NCBI RefSeq assembly: GCF_005434945.1 | Contig: NZ_SKCH01000025.1 | Span: forward strand, 1 to 52,186 | Length of the DNA: 52,186 nucleotides | Reading direction: 5' to 3' | Source: Prescottella subtropica | Lineage (GTDB): Bacteria; Actinomycetota; Actinomycetes; Mycobacteriales; Mycobacteriaceae | Shown here: positions 34,666 to 44,074 of the stretch, piece by piece | Numbering within the stretch: the stretch's first letter is position 1 | Layout: every line of letters starts with the position of its first letter | Notes under the pieces: model-generated | Seen by the model: the letters and a program-made list of their open reading frames with translations, nothing else | Database searches by the model: none | Told to the model about the DNA's origin: nothing | Translations under genes and position numbers: made by a program

Positions 34666-35793
34666 GTGACCAGCGCCTCCTCCCCACAGCAGGATTCTCC
34701 GAACTTGCGTCATCAGGATTCTCCGAATCCGCGCCCCGAACGGGCCATCGACATCTACCGACGGTCGGTGTCGTGGCTCGAGACGCACCTGCCTCCCGGC
34801 TGGTCGATCTCGGCGGACCGGCCCCGCTCCCCCGCCGCCCCCGCCCGACTGCTGGTCACCGCCCCCGACGGCGACACCGTCTCGTACGCGATCAGCACCC
34901 CCAAGGGTGTCCTCAGCGGCGACGTCGCCCGCATCGTCGCCGAACTCGCCGACAGCGACCGGGCGTTCGTGTGCGCCCACTACCTGTCGGATCCGGTGCG
35001 CCGGCAACTCGACGGTCACGGCATCTCCTACGCGGACGCGACCGGCAACGTCGCGCTCGTCGCGGACCGGCCGGCGATCTGGGTGCGCAACCGGGGCGCC
35101 GACGCCGACCCGTGGCGCGGGCCGGGCCGCCCGTCGGGCGTCCTCACCGGGGAGCCGTCCGAACGCGTCGTGCGGGCCCTCGCCGACCACGCCGGGGAGA
35201 TGTCGGTCCCCGACCTGATCAAGATGTCGGGGGCGTCGACCGGCGCCGCGTACCGCGTCGTCGAGGTCCTCCAGGAGCGGGAACTGATCACCCGACTGCC
35301 CCGCGGCCCCGTCACCGATGTCCGCTGGCCGCACATGCTGCGGGCGTGGGCCGCCGACCGCAAGCCGTGCCCGACCCGGAGTTTCGCCGCCCCGAACGGT
35401 CTCGACGACCTGCGGACCCGGCTCGTCGAGGCCGCCCCGGACCTCGGGTACGCGGTCACCGGTGTCGGCGCCACCGACTACGCCACCGCCACCGTCCTCG
35501 AGGTGTACGCCGACGACGTCGACGCGTTCGCCGCCGCCCTGGACCTGCGGCCCGTCGACAGCGGGGCCGGGACCACCGCCTCCGCCGCCGACATCGTGGT
35601 GGCGACCCCCTGGTCGGCGGTCGTGTTCGACCACATGCAATACCGTGACGGGCTGCGCTGCGTCGCCCCGTCGCACGCGTACGCCGACCTCGTCGCCGGC
35701 CCGTTCCGGCACCCGGACGCCGCCGAATACCTGCTCACGGCCATGACCACCGACGAGACCGGGTGGCGACGTCCCGTCCGGCGAGCGCGGTGA
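34666..35793 (+). CDS. winged-helix protein, possibly AbiEi-like
   Basis: The 375-residue protein is of uncertain family. Residues about 160-205 (SERVVRALADHAGEMSVPDL, then SGASTGAAYRVVEVLQEREL) form a typical winged helix. The C-terminal part, with ATDYATATVLEVYADDV and VAPSHAYADLVAGPFRHPDA, resembles the second domain of AbiEi-type antitoxin regulators of type IV toxin-antitoxin systems; no AbiEii toxin gene follows. The N-terminal part (RRSVSWLETHLPPGWSI) is unassigned. It lies 46 bases upstream of jetA in the same direction and might regulate or be a partner of the Wadjet genes. The GTG start is set by the leaderless promoter. Confidence 0.55.
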   Translation: MTSASSPQQDSPNLRHQDSPNPRPERAIDIYRRSVSWLETHLPPGWSISADRPRSPAAPARLLVTAPDGDTVSYAISTPKGVLSGDVARIVAELADSDRAFVCAHYLSDPVRRQLDGHGISYADATGNVALVADRPAIWVRNRGADADPWRGPGRPSGVLTGEPSERVVRALADHAGEMSVPDLIKMSGASTGAAYRVVEVLQERELITRLPRGPVTDVRWPHMLRAWAADRKPCPTRSFAAPNGLDDLRTRLVEAAPDLGYAVTGVGATDYATATVLEVYADDVDAFAAALDLRPVDSGAGTTASAADIVVATPWSAVVFDHMQYRDGLRCVAPSHAYADLVAGPFRHPDAAEYLLTAMTTDETGWRRPVRRAR

Positions 35794-35827
35794 CCGGCGG
35801 GTGTGCGAACCTGTCGGCGTCTGCCCC

Positions 35828-35833
35828 TAGGCT
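35828..35833 (+). promoter_or_regulatory. -10 element of a leaderless jetA promoter
   Basis: TAGGCT followed by 6 bases and the GTG of jetA at 35840; the same arrangement as at dop, pafB and the PAC2 gene. Confidence 0.5.
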
Positions 35834-35839
35834 GTCCCG

Positions 35840-37309
35840 GTGAACGATTCAGGTGACGACCGGCTGCGGCTGTTCTCCTTCACGACGGCCGAGAAACGGG
35901 CCGACTATCTGTGGGTGCTGCGCGCGTTCGACACCGCCCGCGCCAACTACGTGGTGCTGCTGCACGCCGGCGACGTCGCCGATCTCCTCGACCGGATCGC
36001 CGACGACGATTCCGGCCGGCTCACGAGCGCGGAGATCACTCCCCTGCTCGAGCAGTTGCACGCGTGGGGGATCCTCGAACGCAGCTACGACGGCAGCCGT
36101 GCCGCCACCCTCGCCGAGTACCGCAACCGGCATTTCGTCTACCAGTTCGCTCAGGCCGGCTATCTGGTGTTCCGGGCCGTCGAGGACGTCCTCGGTGCCC
36201 GGCTCGAGGACGCGACGCTGTCCCGGCTGACACTGCCGGATCTGCTCGCCGACCTCGAGGAACTCGCCGCGGCCAACCGTCACGGCGACGCCGACCTGAT
36301 CTACCGCAAGCTGTCCCGCCTGGACGCGACGCTCACCGACATGGCCGCACGGGCCGCGCAGTTCTACCTCATGCTCGGCGACCTGGTCCGCACCACCGAG
36401 ATCACCCCGGAGGCGTTCCTCGCCCACAAGGACGCCCTGCTGCGGCACATGCAGGAGTTCAGTTCCGATCTGGCCCGGTACGCCCCCAAACTGGCGGCCG
36501 CGATCGCCGCGATCGAGGGCAGCGGTGTCGACGAGCTGATCGCCCGCGCCGCCACCAGCGACGAGCGGGTGTTCCTGTCCCGCGAGGAACGCGAATCCGA
36601 TTGGCGGGCACGCTGGTCCGGGCTCGCCCAGTGGTTCGTCGGGGTGACCGGCCCGAGCGAATCGGAGCGGCTGCGCGAGGGCACGATGAGTGCGATCGCG
36701 GCGGTGCTGTCGCTGCTGCGGCGGGTCACCGAGACCCGGCGCGGCGGGGTGAGCCGGGAGAGCCAGTTGCGGCACCTGGCCGGCTGGTTCGCGGCGACCC
36801 CCAGCGAGGAGTCGGCGCACACCCTGTTCGAGCTGGTCTTCGACCTGGGCCGGCCGCGGCACCTGTCGATGGTGCACCCGGACGCCGACATCATTCCCGA
36901 ATCCCGCTCGTGGTGGGACGCCACACCCGTCGAGATCTCCCGGACGCTCGCCGAGACGGGCCGGCCCGCCTCACCGGGCGCGCCGTCGAAGGTGCAGCGC
37001 AACGAGGGCGGCATCCGGCGGCTGCGGGAGAACCAGCTCGCGTCGCAGCGGGCCCGTGCCGTGGCGGCGTCGTCGCTCGCCACCAACGGCGCCTACGACC
37101 GGGTCCTGGACGTCGAGGAGACCGATGTGCTGCTCAGCCTGCTCAATGCCGCGCTCACGGCACGGGTCCCGGTCAGCGGCGCGATCGCCGATTCGACCGG
37201 CTCGGACAGCGGGGTGCGGTTGACGCTGAGCCCGCACACCGCGCCGACGGTGGTGCAGACCGCCCGCGGCCGGCTGTACCTGGACGGACTGCAGGTGAGC
37301 GTGCAGTGA
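35840..37309 (+). CDS. jetA: Wadjet type II subunit JetA (DUF2397/TIGR02677)
   Basis: The 489-residue protein matches the DUF2397 family. The N-terminal winged-helix-like part starts LRLFSFTTAEKRADYLWVLR and includes TPLLEQLHAWGILERSYDGS. A long helical middle follows (LSRLDATLTDMAARAAQFYL, FSSDLARYAPKLAAAI), then a C-terminal part rich in Arg and Ser. In Wadjet systems JetA is the kleisin-like subunit bridging the JetC SMC heads. The GTG at 35840 has a leaderless promoter; the stop overlaps jetB by GTGA. Confidence 0.88.
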   Translation: MNDSGDDRLRLFSFTTAEKRADYLWVLRAFDTARANYVVLLHAGDVADLLDRIADDDSGRLTSAEITPLLEQLHAWGILERSYDGSRAATLAEYRNRHFVYQFAQAGYLVFRAVEDVLGARLEDATLSRLTLPDLLADLEELAAANRHGDADLIYRKLSRLDATLTDMAARAAQFYLMLGDLVRTTEITPEAFLAHKDALLRHMQEFSSDLARYAPKLAAAIAAIEGSGVDELIARAATSDERVFLSREERESDWRARWSGLAQWFVGVTGPSESERLREGTMSAIAAVLSLLRRVTETRRGGVSRESQLRHLAGWFAATPSEESAHTLFELVFDLGRPRHLSMVHPDADIIPESRSWWDATPVEISRTLAETGRPASPGAPSKVQRNEGGIRRLRENQLASQRARAVAASSLATNGAYDRVLDVEETDVLLSLLNAALTARVPVSGAIADSTGSDSGVRLTLSPHTAPTVVQTARGRLYLDGLQVSVQ

Positions 37310-38721
37310 CCGTCTCCCCCCTCGAACTCGACTCGTACCAGCGGGCCGCCCGCATGATCCTGTCGAATCATCTGGTGACGCAGACGTATCCGGACCGGAC
37401 GGCGCTGCCACTGCTGCGCCGGTGGGCCACCGAACTGCGCGACGACCTGCTCGACCTGTTCGGGTACCGGCTCGAGGTCACCGAGACCACGGCCCGGCTG
37501 TTCACGGTCCCGGACCGGACCGGATCCGCCACCCCGGCCCGCACCGCCACCGAGCGCACGTTCGACCGGCACCGCTACGCGTACCTGGCGCTCGCACTGG
37601 CCGCGCTCGGCCGGGCCGGGAGCCAGATCACCCTCTCCGAGCTGGCCGAGCACGTCGCCGCCGAGGCCACGCAGGTGCCGGGGGTGACGCTGTCCACCGA
37701 CCGGGCCGCGGACCGGGACGCGTTCGTCGACGCCGTCGGCTGGCTCGCCGCCCGCGGCGCGATCGTCCTGGCCGACGGTGACGCCGGCGGGTGGGCGTCG
37801 AATCCCGAGGCGGGCGAAGCCCTCTACGACATCGACCGGTCCGTGGTGGTGGCCCTGTTCCGGCCGCCGCGGGCACTGCAGCACCTGACGTCGGTGCGGG
37901 CGCTGCTCGCGGGCGCGCCGGCCCCGGACCCGGACGATCCGCTCGGCTACCGGGCCGCCGATCCGCGGGAGACGGCCCGGCGGATGCGCCGTGCACTGGT
38001 GCAGCGGCCCGTCGTCTACGCCGACGACCTCACCGACGACGAACGGCTGCAGCTCGCGCTGCCCGCCACCGCCGCCGACGTCGAACGGTTCACCGGGCTG
38101 TCCGCGGAACGCCGCGCCGAGGGGGTCGCGATGATCGACACGTCGGGCCGGTTGTCGGACACCCGGTTCCCCGGCACCGGCACCGTCTCCCAGGTGGCGC
38201 TGCTGCTGGCCGGGGAGATGGCCGACCGGGTCCTCGACCTGGACGCGCCCGCACTGCCGGCCCGGCCGCGGCCGGCCACCGGACAGGACCTGCTGATCGA
38301 GCAGCTCGACGCCGCGATCCCCGCCGCCGGGATCTTCGAGCACCTCGCCGACGAGGAGACGCCGGCTCCCGCGGCCGGCCCGGCGGCGGATCGTCCCGAC
38401 CCGGCCCGCTACCCGCTGCTCGACCGCGACTGGATCACCGGCGCCGTCGACGAACTGGTCCACCAGTTCGGGCGCACCTTCGCCGCGCAGTGGCAGGCCG
38501 ACCCGGTCGGGCTGCGCCGGCAGGCCGTCGCCCTGCTCGACCGGCTGGATCTGGTGTGCGCCGTCGACGACAGTGTCCTGGTGCTACCGGCGATCGCCCG
38601 GTTCCGCGGCGTCGTCGTCACCGTCCGCGAGCGCAGCGCCCAGCCCGAGCTGTTCCGGGACCCCGACGCCGGGACCACCCCCGAGAACCCCGCCGACTCC
38701 GAGAACTCCGTAGAGAAGTAG
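37306..38721 (+). CDS. jetB: Wadjet type II subunit JetB (DUF2398/TIGR02678)
   Basis: The 471-residue protein matches DUF2398: start LDSYQRAARMILSNHLVTQT, LPLLRRWATELRDDLLDLFG, FDRHRYAYLALALAALGR and, toward the C-terminus, LVYRPAT-like segments replaced by IDTSGRLSDTRFPGTGTVSQ. In Wadjet it is the KITE-type winged-helix subunit that binds the JetA kleisin. Its GTG overlaps the jetA stop by GTGA and jetC begins 13 bases after its end, so all three genes form one operon. Confidence 0.88.
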   Translation: MTVSPLELDSYQRAARMILSNHLVTQTYPDRTALPLLRRWATELRDDLLDLFGYRLEVTETTARLFTVPDRTGSATPARTATERTFDRHRYAYLALALAALGRAGSQITLSELAEHVAAEATQVPGVTLSTDRAADRDAFVDAVGWLAARGAIVLADGDAGGWASNPEAGEALYDIDRSVVVALFRPPRALQHLTSVRALLAGAPAPDPDDPLGYRAADPRETARRMRRALVQRPVVYADDLTDDERLQLALPATAADVERFTGLSAERRAEGVAMIDTSGRLSDTRFPGTGTVSQVALLLAGEMADRVLDLDAPALPARPRPATGQDLLIEQLDAAIPAAGIFEHLADEETPAPAAGPAADRPDPARYPLLDRDWITGAVDELVHQFGRTFAAQWQADPVGLRRQAVALLDRLDLVCAVDDSVLVLPAIARFRGVVVTVRERSAQPELFRDPDAGTTPENPADSENSVEK

Positions 38722-38734
38722 AGGCATTCTTCGC

Positions 38735-41700
38735 ATGGCATCTGCGCGTTTCAAGCCGACCCGCGCCGGGATCGTCAACCTGTGGGACTACCGGGATCAG
38801 GAGTTCTCGTTCGCCGACGGGCGTCTGGTGCTGCGCGGGCCCAACGGTTCGGGTAAGACGAAGGCCCTCGAGGTGCTGTTCCCGTTCGTGTTCGACGGCC
38901 GGATCGAGCCGCGTCGCCTCAACCCGTTCGCGGGTGAGGAGCGGACGATGAAGTCGAATCTGCTGTACCGGGGACAGGATTCGGCGTACTCGTACGTGTG
39001 GATGGAGTTCTGCCGCGGCTCGCAGGACGACCCGGAGGCGGTCACCGTCGGTATCGGCATGCGCGCCACGAAACAGAACGACAAGGTCACCCGCTGGTAC
39101 TTCGTCGCCGAGGGCCGGGTCGGCGTCGACTTCTCCCTCCTCGACGGGGACGACCGGCCGCTGACGAAGAAGCAGCTGGCCGACGAACTCGGCAGCGACG
39201 CGATCACCGACCGCCCCGTCGACTATCGGGCCGCGATCGACGCCCGCCTGTTCGGTCTCGGCGCGCAACGCTACGAGCAGCTGATCAACCTGATCCTGAC
39301 GCTGCGCCGCCCGCAGCTGGCGAAGAACCTGGACCCGAAGGGGCTGTCGCAGGCCCTCACCGACGGGCTGCGGCCCCTCGACGACCAGCTCGTGCTCGAG
39401 GCGGCCCGCTCGTTCAGCGACATGGAGGAGGTGGGCCGGGCGCTCGAGGGCCTGGCCGCCGCCGACCGGGCCGCGCAGAGTTTCGTCACCGTGTACTCGA
39501 CGTATCTGGCGCAGCAGGCTCGTACCGACGTCGAGCAGGTGGCGCGACGCCTCGAGTCGGTGGACCGGACGACGACGGTGCGCGACGAGGCCCTGACCCG
39601 GCAGGCGGCACGGCAGGAGGAGCGGCTGCTCGCAGAGGACCGGTTCACCGCCGCCGAACGGGCCCTCGAGCAGGCCCGCGCCGACCTCGACACGCTGCAG
39701 CGGTCGGGCGCCTACGAGGGCAAACAGCAGCTCGACGATCTCGCGGCCGCCGTCGAACAGTTGAAGGTGTCGACGGCGCAGCAGGCCGACAAGGCCCGCA
39801 AGGCGCAGGCGACACTCGCCCAGCGCACCGACGAGGCGTCCCGTGCGACGGAATCGGTGCGCCGCGCGAACGCCGCGCTCGCCCACGCCGAGGACGAACT
39901 CGCCGCAGCCGCCGAGCAGGCCGGTATCACCTGGACACCGCTGCCGCAGGATGCGCGGGCCGACCGGATCACCACGACCGTCCGGGGGCTGGCCACCGAA
40001 CGGACCGGCGACGTCCGGGCGGTGCGGGCAGCGCTGGCGACGGTCGACAAGTCCGGCACCGAGCGTGACCGCGCCGACCGGGCCGCCGGCCGGGGCCGGG
40101 AACTGCTCGACGCCGCCCGGGCCGCGGTCGCGGAGGCGGAGGCGTCGGTGGAGTTGGCTCGCGCCGACTGCGCGGCCGCGCTGCGCGCCTGGTGGACCGA
40201 GCATTCGGGCGAGTACGCGTCGATCGGAGTGACCGCCGAGACGTTCACGGCGCTCGACGCCGCACTCGCCCGGGCCGGCGACGACGACTCCCCCGCGCTG
40301 ACGTCGGTGCTGCACGAGCAGACGCAGTCGGCGCTCGACGAGCAGCGCGGCAGCCGCCGGGACGCCGTCGCCCGGCAGGCGGCGGTGCGGGAGCGGATCG
40401 CCGGGCTGCGCGCCGACCGGGCGCGGGTCGCCGCCGAACACGACGACGCCCCCGCCGGGGTGCCGTTCCGCACCGGGGACCGCAGCGGCCTGCCCGGCGC
40501 CCCGCTGTGGCGGCTGGTGCGGTTCGCCGACACCGTCTCGGCGGCGGCCGCGGCCGGTGTCGAATCGGCGTTGGCGGCCGCGAACCTGCTCGACGCGTGG
40601 GTGGTCGGCGACGACGGGCCGCTGCCCGAGATCGAGTCCGAGCAGTTCCTGCGTCCGCTGCCCGCCGAGCGGCGACCGGCCGGCCGGACCCTGGCCGACG
40701 TCCTGGTCCCCGAGTCCGATGCGGGGGTGCCGGAGACGCTGGTGCAGGCGATCCTCGAATCGATCGCGCTGGATTCCCGTGATCCCGACGCCGACCCTGC
40801 CGACCACCCCGAGGTGGGCGTCACGGTCGACGGCCGCTTCCGGCAGGGCGTCGCGCACGGCCGGCACGTCCAGGAGCACGCCGAATTCATCGGCACCACC
40901 GCCCGGGAGCGGCGCCGCGCGGCCCGGCTCACCGAACTCGACGAGGAGATCGCCGCCGCCGAGGAGGCCCTCGCCGCCGCCCGCGACGCCGAGGCCGAGA
41001 CGACCGCGGTCCTGGACCGGTTGACGGCCGCCGGGAAGACGCTGCCCCGCACGTCCGGGGTTCTCGCCGCGATCACCAAGCTCACCGAGGCGGCGGGCGC
41101 ACTGCGCACCCGCGCCGAGTCGACGGCGAGTGCCGGCGACGAACTCGACCAGGCGATCGCCGACCACACCGCGAAGGAGAAGCAGGTCCGTGCGGTCGCC
41201 GCGACGCACCGCACCTCCCCCGATCCGCGGGACGTCGACGCGCTCGTGGCCGCGATCCGGCACTTCGAGGGTCAGGGTGAGCAGTCGCTGCGCGCCCGCC
41301 GGGACCACGAGAAGGAACTCGAACTCCACCGGGAGACGGAGGACCGGCTCGAGGAGGCCCGCGGCAACACCGAGGAGTTCGTGGAGGAGGCCGCGGTCGC
41401 CGAGGAGAACTACATCCACCAGGTGTCCCGGCTCGAGACGCTGCGGGACGCGCTCGGGGCGAGCACCGAGCAGATCGACGCCGACCTCGAGGCGGCCCGC
41501 GCCCGCATCGAGGTGTGCAAGACGGAGCAGCGGGCCGCCCGCAAGGCGTACGACACGGCCGTCGAACAGATCGGCAAGGCCGAGGGCGCACACACCGCCG
41601 CCGTCGAGGCGCTGCGGGCGGCGCTGACCGAGACCCGGTCGGATGCCGACCGGCTCGCCCCGTACGCCCGGCGGGATCTGCTCGACCTACTCGGGGTGCC

Positions 41701-42925
41701 CACCCACCACGGCTGGCCGCAGAGTTCGGCTGCGTGGCTGACGGCGGAACAGCTGGTGTACCGGATCGTGACCGAGGGGGACGTGGACGCCCCGATCCTG
41801 CCGCCGGACGTCACGGCCCTGCACCGCGCACTGGAGACGGCGACCGCGGACGTCAAGACCAGCGAGCACGCGAAGAAGGCCACCCGCTCGGCCCTGACCG
41901 CGGCCCTGCAGGACTTCGACGCCCAACTCGCCGCGGCCGGCCAGGACTACCGGCTGCAGTGGGACGCCCCGGACGGGCTCACCGTCGTCCGGGTGCAGGA
42001 CGACCAGGGGTATGCGTCGATCGGCGAGTTCGCGACCCGCATCCAGGCGGCCCGCCGGGATCAGGAGGTGCTGCTCACCGATTCGGAGCGCCGCATCCTC
42101 GAGGACGCGCTGCTGACCGGTCTGGCGCAGCAGATCCACGAACGCACCGCCGACGCCCGCCTGCTGATCGCGCAGATGGGCGCCGAGATGCGGGAGCGGC
42201 GCATGTCGTCGGGTTCGACGATCGGTGTGCACTGGGTGCTCGCCGACAACCTCGACGACAACGCCCGCGCCGTCTCCAAGCTGCTCGACCGCGCCCCGTC
42301 GGCGCTCAGCGGCGACGAACTGTCGTCCGTCCGAGCACATTTCGCGGCCCAGGTGCGGGCGGCACGGGCCGCGCACCCGGAACGCTCGTACCCGGAGATC
42401 CTCGCGTCGGCCCTCGACTACCGGCGGTGGCGGGTGTTCTCGTTCACGCTGGTCGGCGGCGACGGCAGCGAGGACCGGCTCACCGTCGCCCGGCACAGCG
42501 CCCTCTCCGGTGGTGAGCAGTCGGTGTCGCTGCACCTGCCGCTGTTCGCGGCCGCGCACGTGATGCTGTCGTCGGCGGATCCGCATTCGCCGCGCCTGCT
42601 CGGCCTGGACGAGGCGTTCGCCGGTGTCGACGACAACGGCCGCAGCGAGCTGCTCGGGTTGAGTGTGCAGTTCGATCTGGACCTGTTCATGACCGGCTAC
42701 GACCTGTGGATCACCTACGCGGGTGTGCCGGGGTGCGCGCACTACGACCTGGCTCATTCGACGGCCGAGCAGACGGTCAGCGCCGCACTGCTGGTGTGGT
42801 CGGGTGGCGGCCTGCTCGCCGAGCACGACGGCAGCAACCTGGCGCGGGCACTCGGGTCGCCGATGCGGCGGCGTCTGCCGACGACCGTCGACGGCGGTCT
42901 CGAGTTCGTCGACTCCCCGGCCTGA
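38735..42925 (+). CDS. jetC: Wadjet type II subunit JetC (SMC/SbcC-like ATPase, TIGR02680)
   Basis: The 1396-residue SMC-like ATPase begins SARFKPTRAGIVNLWDYRDQ with Walker A GPNGSGKT (35-42). It continues with two very long Ala/Arg/Glu-rich coiled-coil arms around a hinge region (about residues 560-720), and ends with the ABC signature LSGGEQ (1257-1262) and Walker B LLGLDEAFAG (from 1288). It would extrude DNA loops, which in Wadjet allows small circular plasmids to be recognised and cut. The gene is intact. The next gene on this strand is an unrelated GH19 enzyme at 43214, so the expected nuclease gene jetD is missing. Confidence 0.9.
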   Translation: MASARFKPTRAGIVNLWDYRDQEFSFADGRLVLRGPNGSGKTKALEVLFPFVFDGRIEPRRLNPFAGEERTMKSNLLYRGQDSAYSYVWMEFCRGSQDDPEAVTVGIGMRATKQNDKVTRWYFVAEGRVGVDFSLLDGDDRPLTKKQLADELGSDAITDRPVDYRAAIDARLFGLGAQRYEQLINLILTLRRPQLAKNLDPKGLSQALTDGLRPLDDQLVLEAARSFSDMEEVGRALEGLAAADRAAQSFVTVYSTYLAQQARTDVEQVARRLESVDRTTTVRDEALTRQAARQEERLLAEDRFTAAERALEQARADLDTLQRSGAYEGKQQLDDLAAAVEQLKVSTAQQADKARKAQATLAQRTDEASRATESVRRANAALAHAEDELAAAAEQAGITWTPLPQDARADRITTTVRGLATERTGDVRAVRAALATVDKSGTERDRADRAAGRGRELLDAARAAVAEAEASVELARADCAAALRAWWTEHSGEYASIGVTAETFTALDAALARAGDDDSPALTSVLHEQTQSALDEQRGSRRDAVARQAAVRERIAGLRADRARVAAEHDDAPAGVPFRTGDRSGLPGAPLWRLVRFADTVSAAAAAGVESALAAANLLDAWVVGDDGPLPEIESEQFLRPLPAERRPAGRTLADVLVPESDAGVPETLVQAILESIALDSRDPDADPADHPEVGVTVDGRFRQGVAHGRHVQEHAEFIGTTARERRRAARLTELDEEIAAAEEALAAARDAEAETTAVLDRLTAAGKTLPRTSGVLAAITKLTEAAGALRTRAESTASAGDELDQAIADHTAKEKQVRAVAATHRTSPDPRDVDALVAAIRHFEGQGEQSLRARRDHEKELELHRETEDRLEEARGNTEEFVEEAAVAEENYIHQVSRLETLRDALGASTEQIDADLEAARARIEVCKTEQRAARKAYDTAVEQIGKAEGAHTAAVEALRAALTETRSDADRLAPYARRDLLDLLGVPTHHGWPQSSAAWLTAEQLVYRIVTEGDVDAPILPPDVTALHRALETATADVKTSEHAKKATRSALTAALQDFDAQLAAAGQDYRLQWDAPDGLTVVRVQDDQGYASIGEFATRIQAARRDQEVLLTDSERRILEDALLTGLAQQIHERTADARLLIAQMGAEMRERRMSSGSTIGVHWVLADNLDDNARAVSKLLDRAPSALSGDELSSVRAHFAAQVRAARAAHPERSYPEILASALDYRRWRVFSFTLVGGDGSEDRLTVARHSALSGGEQSVSLHLPLFAAAHVMLSSADPHSPRLLGLDEAFAGVDDNGRSELLGLSVQFDLDLFMTGYDLWITYAGVPGCAHYDLAHSTAEQTVSAALLVWSGGGLLAEHDGSNLARALGSPMRRRLPTTVDGGLEFVDSPA

Positions 42926-43213
42926 CGCCCGGGCCGCAGCGGCCCACGTTCGGCGCCGGCTACCACGTCGTCCGACTGGTGGTCGGCGCCACACGCCACG
43001 CATCATAGGTGATCCACGTCACAATGTCACCGATCTGTGACATAAACCTCGCAGGGTTGCGATCTTGAGCGATTCAGCTGTTACCTGGTTGTGACCTTGT
43101 CGTGATCACCGAGTTATCGATCCGGTTGGATCGAAGCAACCCTCTCTCGACTGTACCGGTGTTCACGTTCGGAGGCTGCCCCGTCTGCAGCCCGAAGATG
43201 GAGAGCACGAACC
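42926..43213. other. 288-base intergenic region; jetD absent
   Basis: No open frame of gene-like composition lies here where jetD would be expected. The first part is GC-rich; the second, from about 43010, is richer in A/T and holds the palindrome at 43024 and the leader of the GH19 gene with GGAGAG near 43199. Confidence 0.7.
43024..43043. promoter_or_regulatory. 20-base palindrome upstream of the GH19 gene
   Basis: ATGTCAC, six bases, GTGACAT: a perfect 7-bp inverted repeat. The left arm also forms a direct repeat with GTCACA a few bases upstream, similar to MtrA-type direct repeats (GTCACA) seen before mycobacterial cell-wall hydrolase genes. The regulator is not known. Confidence 0.45.
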
Positions 43214-44074
43214 TTGAACGATTCGCGTACGAACACCTTCGACCAGACGTCGACCACCCGCTGCGGGTTCATGACCCGGACCCGCGCCGCCGGCATCGCG
43301 ACCCTCGCCGCTGCCGGCCTGTGGGTCGGCTCGGCCGTCGCCGGCGCCCTGCCTGCGCACGCCGAGACCGCCGCCCAGGCCCAGCCGGCCGAGGCCGCCG
43401 CGCCGCTGGCCGCACCCCTGAAGTTCCTCGACTCGACGGGCCTGCTCGCGGCCCTCAACCTGCCCGCGACGACGCCGGAGGCGGCACCGCTCGCGCAGGA
43501 CATCGCCACCCCGGCCCCCGCCCCCGTCGCCCCCCCGGCCCCGAGCCCGTCGTCGGTCACGCTCGACGAGCTGGTGCAGATCGTGCCGCAGGTCGCGCCG
43601 GACCGGCTCTCGCAGTACGTCGCGCCGCTCAACGACGCCCTCGCCAAGGCCGCGATCGACACCCCGCTGCGCAAGGCCGCGTTCATCGCGCAGCTCGTCG
43701 TCGAGTCGGACTCGTTCCGCACGTTCGAGGAGTACGCGTCCGGTCGCGCCTACGAGGGCCGCTCGGATCTGGGCAACGTCGCCCCCGGCGACGGCGAGCG
43801 CTACAAGGGCCGCGGTGCCATCCAGGTCACCGGCCGGCACAACTACCAGAGCGTGAGCGACTACCTCGGCATCGACTTCGTCGCCAACCCCGAGCTGATG
43901 GCCACCCCGGAGAACGCGTTCGAGACCGCGGCCTGGTACTGGCAGTCCCGCAACCTCAACGCCGTCTCCGACAGCGGCAGCATCGAGAACGTGTCGCGCA
44001 TCGTCAACGGCGGCACCCACGGCCTGCTCAAGCGCATCGACAGCTTCCAGCGCGCCCTCGGCATCCTGCACTGA
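43214..44074 (+). CDS. secreted GH19-type chitinase/lysozyme-like enzyme
   Basis: The 286-residue precursor has an N-terminal signal peptide (hydrophobic AAGIATLAAAGLWVGSAVAG, likely cut after ALPAHA at residue 50), a Pro/Ala-rich linker, and a catalytic domain of the glycoside hydrolase 19 type from about residue 115. The family motif YKGRGAIQVTGRHNY and a candidate catalytic Glu164 in LVVESDSF are visible. It probably cleaves peptidoglycan or chitin outside the cell. I chose the TTG at 43214 because GGAGAG lies 10 bases upstream; an in-frame ATG at 43271 would also keep the signal peptide. Confidence 0.8.
   Translation: MNDSRTNTFDQTSTTRCGFMTRTRAAGIATLAAAGLWVGSAVAGALPAHAETAAQAQPAEAAAPLAAPLKFLDSTGLLAALNLPATTPEAAPLAQDIATPAPAPVAPPAPSPSSVTLDELVQIVPQVAPDRLSQYVAPLNDALAKAAIDTPLRKAAFIAQLVVESDSFRTFEEYASGRAYEGRSDLGNVAPGDGERYKGRGAIQVTGRHNYQSVSDYLGIDFVANPELMATPENAFETAAWYWQSRNLNAVSDSGSIENVSRIVNGGTHGLLKRIDSFQRALGILH

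Follow-up and report, generated by a model that had tools for sequence, protein, structure and literature searches.

A type II Wadjet-like jetABC operon without jetD in Prescottella subtropica: a candidate accessory condensin

In Wadjet systems, JetABC reels in DNA and JetD cuts once a small circle has been fully extruded (PMC10586767, PMC12647877). What, then, does a jetABC operon do that has no jetD? The question is raised by a locus of Prescottella subtropica on a contig of 52,186 bases (C18), which was analyzed in its whole length and is referred to as the window; it belongs to a draft genome of 4.40 Mb in 67 contigs (completeness 100%, contamination 0.82% according to the tool's table). 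A preceding sequence-only reading had described the locus as a type II Wadjet operon without its nuclease gene, and had proposed that the nuclease is encoded elsewhere, that the complex now works as a condensin-like DNA organizer, or that a different effector replaces JetD. With moderate confidence, and judging from sequence comparisons, we favor the view that the locus encodes a type II Wadjet-derived structural maintenance of chromosomes (SMC) complex without JetD, which is probably kept for loop extrusion without cutting, and most likely as an accessory condensin.

The operon and the search for JetD

The genes jetA, jetB and jetC are intact and tightly coupled, as had been claimed: all three fall into their families above curated cut-offs (Table 1), jetA and jetB overlap by 4 bases, and jetC starts 13 bases 3' of jetB. 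The ATPase motifs of JetC are likewise complete, with GPNGSGKT at residue 35, LSGGEQ at residue 1257 and RLLGLDEAF at residue 1287, which we take to be Walker A, signature and Walker B. Families and gene order are those of type II Wadjet JetABCD, and the best PADLOC models for JetA, JetB and JetC were the type II ones, with JetC scoring 1431 bits against the JetC2 (type II) and 41 bits against the JetC1 (type I) model. Chains of the type II Wadjet entry 9qe0 of the PDB were matched by JetC (E 2e-68) and JetA (E 5.1e-11); 9qe0 and 9qe1 presumably represent the Neobacillus vireti type II complex, a link drawn from a citation of the structure paper in PMC12647877. Among named relatives, the closest JetC proteins belong to the Rhodococcus equi / Prescottella group (80-85% in L001-L005), and that of the genus member L143 is nearer to the window (91%).

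The next gene encodes a glycoside hydrolase family 19 (GH19)-like enzyme, and no JetD frame lies in the 288 bases before it, in agreement with the sequence-only reading. A profile built from the JetD proteins of 16 relatives and searched in six frames at E<=10 gave no match in the window, nothing beyond its 16 source loci among the window and the 80 related loci described below, and nothing in 13 other loci of the genus. The genome-wide search for DUF2399 and TIGR02679 proteins that had been proposed was carried out on the 4.40 Mb assembly, in which TIGR02679, PF09664, PF09983 and an alignment of nine of the 16 JetD proteins (A1) found no match. These searches were accompanied by controls: the TIGR02679 search and one PF09664 search had no match in any of the 14 control genomes, so that neither carries much weight by itself; the PF09983 search gave a match in Corynebacterium glutamicum, a second PF09664 search in 76 of 394 genomes of the class, and A1 in 13 of 121 relatives. 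The locus thus holds the JetA, JetB and JetC families of type II Wadjet, of which the JetD component (DUF3323 plus DUF2399/TIGR02679) was found neither in the operon nor in the genome, and it has the MksBEF-type gene content of an SMC, kleisin and KITE operon without a nuclease gene. As the type I JetD_C nuclease (PF09983) was not found in the genome, the locus does not qualify as Wadjet type I. Since the cutting nuclease was sought and not found, the locus falls outside strictly defined Wadjet type II defense systems as well; a PADLOC Wadjet call requires all four genes (PMC9252829).

The proposal that the nuclease is encoded elsewhere found no support in these searches, nor was JetD found in the 13 other genus genomes, and an OLD-like TOPRIM protein acting in trans was not found in the window's own genome (control matched 4 of 14). 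That a nuclease of another kind, encoded elsewhere in the genome, serves JetABC as its partner, so that plasmids are still restricted, is in our estimate rather improbable. Genomes encode nucleases of many families, and the lack of a clearly relaxed patch in JetABC without JetD (see below) would fit such a partner; against it stand the failure to find a type I or II JetD or an OLD-like TOPRIM protein in the genome, these being the families searched, and the finding that no gene 3' of jetC is conserved in JetD-less loci. The commonest same-strand cluster within 150 bases after jetC, read as a major facilitator superfamily transporter, occurs in 3 of 65 JetD-less loci (window included), and the idea that a different effector replaces JetD is thereby left without a conserved candidate on that side of the operon.

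On the other side, the gene just 5' of jetA, which lies inside the span of the sequence-only reading but goes unmentioned there, encodes a helix-turn-helix (HTH) / AbiEi-like protein that looks like a regulator, and probably is one. That this gene supplies an effector in place of JetD, or acts together with JetABC in some other way, we regard as very unlikely. It adjoins jetA in the window and was matched there in all 13 other genus loci, and the order predicted for its N-terminal elements, H-E-E-E-H-E-H-E, is reminiscent of a restriction-endonuclease-like fold; the underlying structure model is weak (mean predicted local distance difference test score, pLDDT, of 66.6), and no E-x-K motif is visible in the expected strand of any of 13 homologues. 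A PDB sequence search returned only four matches, none with E below 0.16. Among domains, a winged helix matched best; HTH_IclR was matched in all 13 homologues and AbiEi_2, weakly, in 5 of them (E<=0.1). In addition, the cluster is absent from the fetched Nocardia loci, which carry a different one 5' of jetA (cluster 11, read as an XRE-type regulator), and one of its members lies near the JetD-bearing locus L013 (R. tibetensis). One terminator site and one promoter site in the 288-base gap, both on the minus strand, were chance-like and were rejected.

Table 1. Coordinates of the jetABC operon and its neighbors in the window
Feature	Positions	Strand	Remarks
HTH / AbiEi-like gene, 375 aa	34666..35793	+	just 5' of jetA; probable regulator; HTH_IclR and weak AbiEi_2 matches
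jetA, kleisin, type II	35840..37309	+	DUF2397 E 2.1e-142; TIGR02677 above cut-off
jetB, KITE subunit	37306..38721	+	DUF2398 E 1e-69; TIGR02678 above cut-off
jetC, SMC ATPase	38735..42925	+	TIGR02680, 730 bits vs cut-off 463; Walker A, signature, Walker B
gap, expected place of jetD	42926..43213		288 bases; no remnant with six-frame JetD profile
GH19-like enzyme	43214..44074	+	PF00182 E 9.6e-10; neighbor kept in the genus, outside the system

Distribution and history of the JetD-less state

Comparison of the locus across relatives, as had been suggested, showed jetABC without jetD to be kept in all 13 other genus genomes searched, with JetA matched in 14 of 14 genus genomes and JetD in none. 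In each of the 13 other loci, the HTH gene, JetA, JetB, JetC and then the GH19 gene were matched; in L152, only the end of the HTH gene is present, as the contig breaks off within it. Inactivated jetABC-only loci, which would have refuted the sequence-only reading, were sought among them as well and did not refute it: in 12 of the 13, JetA, JetB and JetC were unbroken and free of stops wherever they were matched. In the thirteenth, L155, every gene examined is broken, neighbors included, and the breakage of L155 / L079 (contig of 5,751,951 bases) is probably sequencing or assembly noise. At least seven of the 13 genomes recur, as identical records, in the set of 80 loci described next (L001-L005, L072, L079). 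The JetD-less state of the window is no local accident.

Beyond the genus, a JetC search was evaluated for the best 80 of 367 relatives, which represent the nearest JetC genes and not a random sample. JetD directly follows jetC in 16 of these loci, spaced from 22 bases of overlap to a gap of 26 bases according to the gene calls, and does not in 61; the remaining three (L052, L055, L080), also without a JetD match, offer too little sequence 3' of jetC for a call. Two of the 16 JetD proteins were checked against Pfam and NCBIfam, and both carry DUF3323 and DUF2399, with TIGR02679 above the cut-off in one and just below it in the other; the rest were assigned by similarity. A second set of relatives comprised 121 genomes and overlaps with the 80 loci (G053 = L038, G067 = L037). 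Of the family genomes searched, 29 carry this JetA subfamily (56-100% identity); 27 of these gave no JetD match, and in the other two, G053 and G067, JetD lies directly 3' of jetC. In other families of the order, 8 of 9 genomes with a JetA match also match JetD, the ninth holding a JetA fragment only. In the class sample, full-length JetA, sorted from partial JetA by eye, was found in 86 of 394 genomes, of which 67 hold DUF2399 somewhere; outside the family the corresponding count is 66 of 81. Outside the family, JetD alongside JetA is the rule. Three genomes (G076, G093, G103) gave a JetD match and no JetA match, from which it appears that searching with a single JetA sequence overlooks the more distant JetA proteins.

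From the class, 17 stretches were fetched, 12 of them from genomes without DUF2399; JetA, JetB and JetC were all matched in 14 and JetD in none, with L133 ending about 400 bases 3' of jetC. JetABC without a nearby JetD in these genomes means that the JetD-less state also occurs in other actinomycete families. The genomes of L140 (G188) and L141 (G215) carry a second JetABC copy without JetD nearby and a DUF2399 match near another JetA copy; in these, JetD may possibly act in trans. A distant JetA lineage within the family (about 30% identity; L105-L110, with L107 and L108 cut by contig ends) showed no JetD, in searches with A1 that is unproven on the JetD of that lineage. In L106, a distant JetD-less JetABC locus, a frame of about 1120 aa for an SNF2-type helicase (L106:9857-13219) starts on the same strand 13 bases after jetC and is possibly another partner. 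In G468, a family member with a second jetA, a DUF2399 match on contig 1 (about 8346398-8348404) lies just 5' of jetA on the same strand, which suggests a different gene order with jetD first.

The chromosomal site was compared for 16 loci with JetD and 65 without (window included), the gene names being a reading of sequence clusters. On the upstream side, 12 of the 16 loci with JetD and 42 of the 65 without have a metH- or PAC2-like gene; on the downstream side, 14 of the 16 and 25 of the 65 have an mshC-like gene, and both flanks occur together in 12 of 16 and 17 of 65. Many, not all, loci of both kinds share a common site.

For the history of JetD, a tree of concatenated JetABC (83 rows) was computed with FastTree only, with two loci from other families, both carrying JetD, as the root. 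It omits L044, L046 and L070 (no JetA called), L055, L079, L105, L106, L109 and L120, as well as the fetched L103, L104, L107, L108, L110, L113, L114, L116 and L119; L027 and L052 were included, marked unsure and counted as JetD-less. JetD is scattered over this tree, on which a loss-only model takes 17 losses. It is missing from a Nocardia group of 27 and from a group of 12 that includes the window, and only one member of each of the sister pairs L040/L023 and L030/L032 has it, L023 and L032 being without. Distances between JetD proteins correlate with those between JetC proteins (18 loci, r 0.92, with 0 of 2000 permutations as high), which fits joint descent. Because most JetA-bearing genomes outside the family also hold JetD, the likeliest course suggested by the sequences is an ancestral JetD that was repeatedly lost, rather than gained.

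Selection and possible function

Ratios of nonsynonymous to synonymous substitution rates (dN/dS) were calculated with NG86 for pairs chosen by hand and unmatched between the groups. They range over 0.010-0.198 for JetA, 0.015-0.254 for JetB and 0.040-0.176 for JetC in 11 JetD-less pairs, and over 0.037-0.064, 0.074-0.195 and 0.056-0.075, in the same order, in 5 JetD-bearing pairs; two mixed pairs with JetD in one member, outside those counts, gave 0.055 and 0.064 (JetA), 0.112 and 0.186 (JetB), and 0.068 and 0.157 (JetC). For comparison, mshC gave 0.023-0.121 in 7 JetD-less and 0.021-0.051 in 5 JetD-bearing pairs, and metH 0.056-0.143 in 4 JetD-less pairs; the JetC/mshC ratio is 1.0-2.1 without JetD and 1.3-3.0 with it. 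These ratios show JetABC to be under purifying selection where JetD is lacking. All three ATPase motifs were found in 68 of 70 JetD-less JetC proteins, the two others being a contig-end fragment (L055) and a frameshifted assembly (L079), and in 15 of 16 JetD-bearing ones, where the open reading frame of L019 lacks Walker A and its start was probably called late. Of the columns that are near-invariant in 18 JetD-bearing rows, 168 of 208 in JetA, 121 of 164 in JetB and 417 of 518 in JetC remain at least 95% identical across 63 JetD-less rows.

These data largely contradict the idea that the operon is a decaying remnant not yet mutated, or that an assembly gap hides JetD, and we give it hardly any credence. 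JetC is unmatched in 3 of the 17 stretches fetched from the class, so that such operons do break up elsewhere, and jetD was apparently lost in L023 and L032 recently enough that their sister loci keep JetD; low dN/dS, together with motifs and frames that are intact across the genus and the Nocardia group of 27, argues against decay, as the sequence-only reading had argued from the intact genes, and the GH19 gene, which comes after jetC in the window as in each of the 13 other assemblies of the genus, argues against a gap.

We favor a role as DNA organizer because of this conservation, the purifying selection and the precedent of Pseudomonas aeruginosa MksBEF, which is thought to have lost JetD and contributes to chromosome organization (PMC10586767). 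In the proposed mechanism, JetC would hydrolyze ATP, and JetA, the kleisin subunit (PMC10586767), would complete the ring together with the KITE subunit JetB. The JetABC motor would reel in loops of the chromosome, of plasmids or of both, and in the absence of JetD a fully reeled-in circle would stay uncleaved. A canonical SMC is also encoded in the genome, so JetABC would be a second complex, and its likeliest use, by analogy to P. aeruginosa MksBEF, would be that of an accessory condensin that organizes or compacts DNA beside the canonical one. Loop extrusion, DNA organization and a loss rather than gain of JetD are what we infer from these comparisons.

Several observations weigh against this account. 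On the JetABC tree, the minimum is 6 changes with the direction unspecified. JetD identities between lineages are 40-49%, little above the 37-41% to outgroups, and the JetD tree, unlike the JetABC tree, groups L030 with L038; given this divergence between lineages, transfer of JetD into the same place is possible. JetC reaches a dN/dS of 0.10 or more in 8 of the 11 JetD-less pairs and stays at or below 0.075 in all 5 JetD-bearing ones, and a mild relaxation of JetC without JetD is possible, mshC also being higher in JetD-less pairs. The column comparison (18 versus 63 rows) revealed no clear relaxed docking patch in JetABC without JetD, so the docking surface could still be in use. Finally, MksB of C. 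glutamicum, which acts in a complex with a nuclease, was without effect on chromosome organization (PMC10123090).

The main rival, which we consider unlikely, is that JetABC still acts against plasmids or phages without cutting, by reeling in and compacting small circles and thereby blocking their replication, transcription or partition. Smc5/6 offers an example of such a compaction mode. JetABC extrudes the DNA in one step and JetD cleaves it in another (PMC10586767, PMC12647877), which makes such restriction conceivable, and the gene 5' of jetA weakly matches AbiEi-type antitoxin regulators, which are of a defense-like kind; the presence of the locus in 14 of 14 genus genomes with the same neighbors speaks for a core gene more than for a defense island.

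Relation to known systems

Besides type II Wadjet, the locus has its closest parallels in other SMC-type complexes. MksBEF is MukBEF-like and has a reported chromosome role, for which the window locus is a candidate. The EptC locus of Mycobacterium smegmatis (Panas 2014) stands for SMC-like plasmid restriction in an actinobacterium (PMC10123090). It reportedly comprises four genes. C. glutamicum MksBEFG, a type I Wadjet, resembles the window in being a second SMC-type complex beside the canonical SMC of an actinobacterium, and differs in having the nuclease MksG, with which it limits plasmids (PMC10123090); the window's genome has no PF09983 match.

Searches of the open-license PMC literature brought up no report of JetD-less type II complexes, as judged by title or the start of the abstract. 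How a single type of SMC motor can act in chromosome folding as well as in immunity is posed as an open question in section 7 of PMC10586767, and the locus offers a natural experiment on it, with relatives that do and do not carry the nuclease, often at the same site, and JetABC otherwise conserved. We tentatively suggest that a plasmid-destroying SMC machine has repeatedly shed its nuclease in actinomycetes, often at one conserved site, and become a core, nuclease-free condensin-like complex while close relatives keep the nuclease. If this is true, the pairs L040/L023 and L030/L032 would catch a switch between immunity and genome organization in progress, and many 'Wadjet II defense' loci of Rhodococcus would not be nuclease-based defense.

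Tables of defense systems may count JetD-less JetABC loci as Wadjet II (PMC12915292, PMC10482375), and part of the surveyed Wadjet counts may be nuclease-free complexes. In the survey of PMC10482375, Wadjet is given for 42% of Actinobacteria versus 7% of others, and 73% of 97 Rhodococcus genomes combine Wadjet with a restriction-modification system and either of two others. Table 4 of a 2026 paper on Rhodococcus erythropolis lists 'Wadjet_II' with three protein ids (PMC12915292); six loci of the R. erythropolis group in our comparison (L007, L008, L010, L012, L022 and, from strain NBRC 15567, L078) hold JetABC and no JetD.

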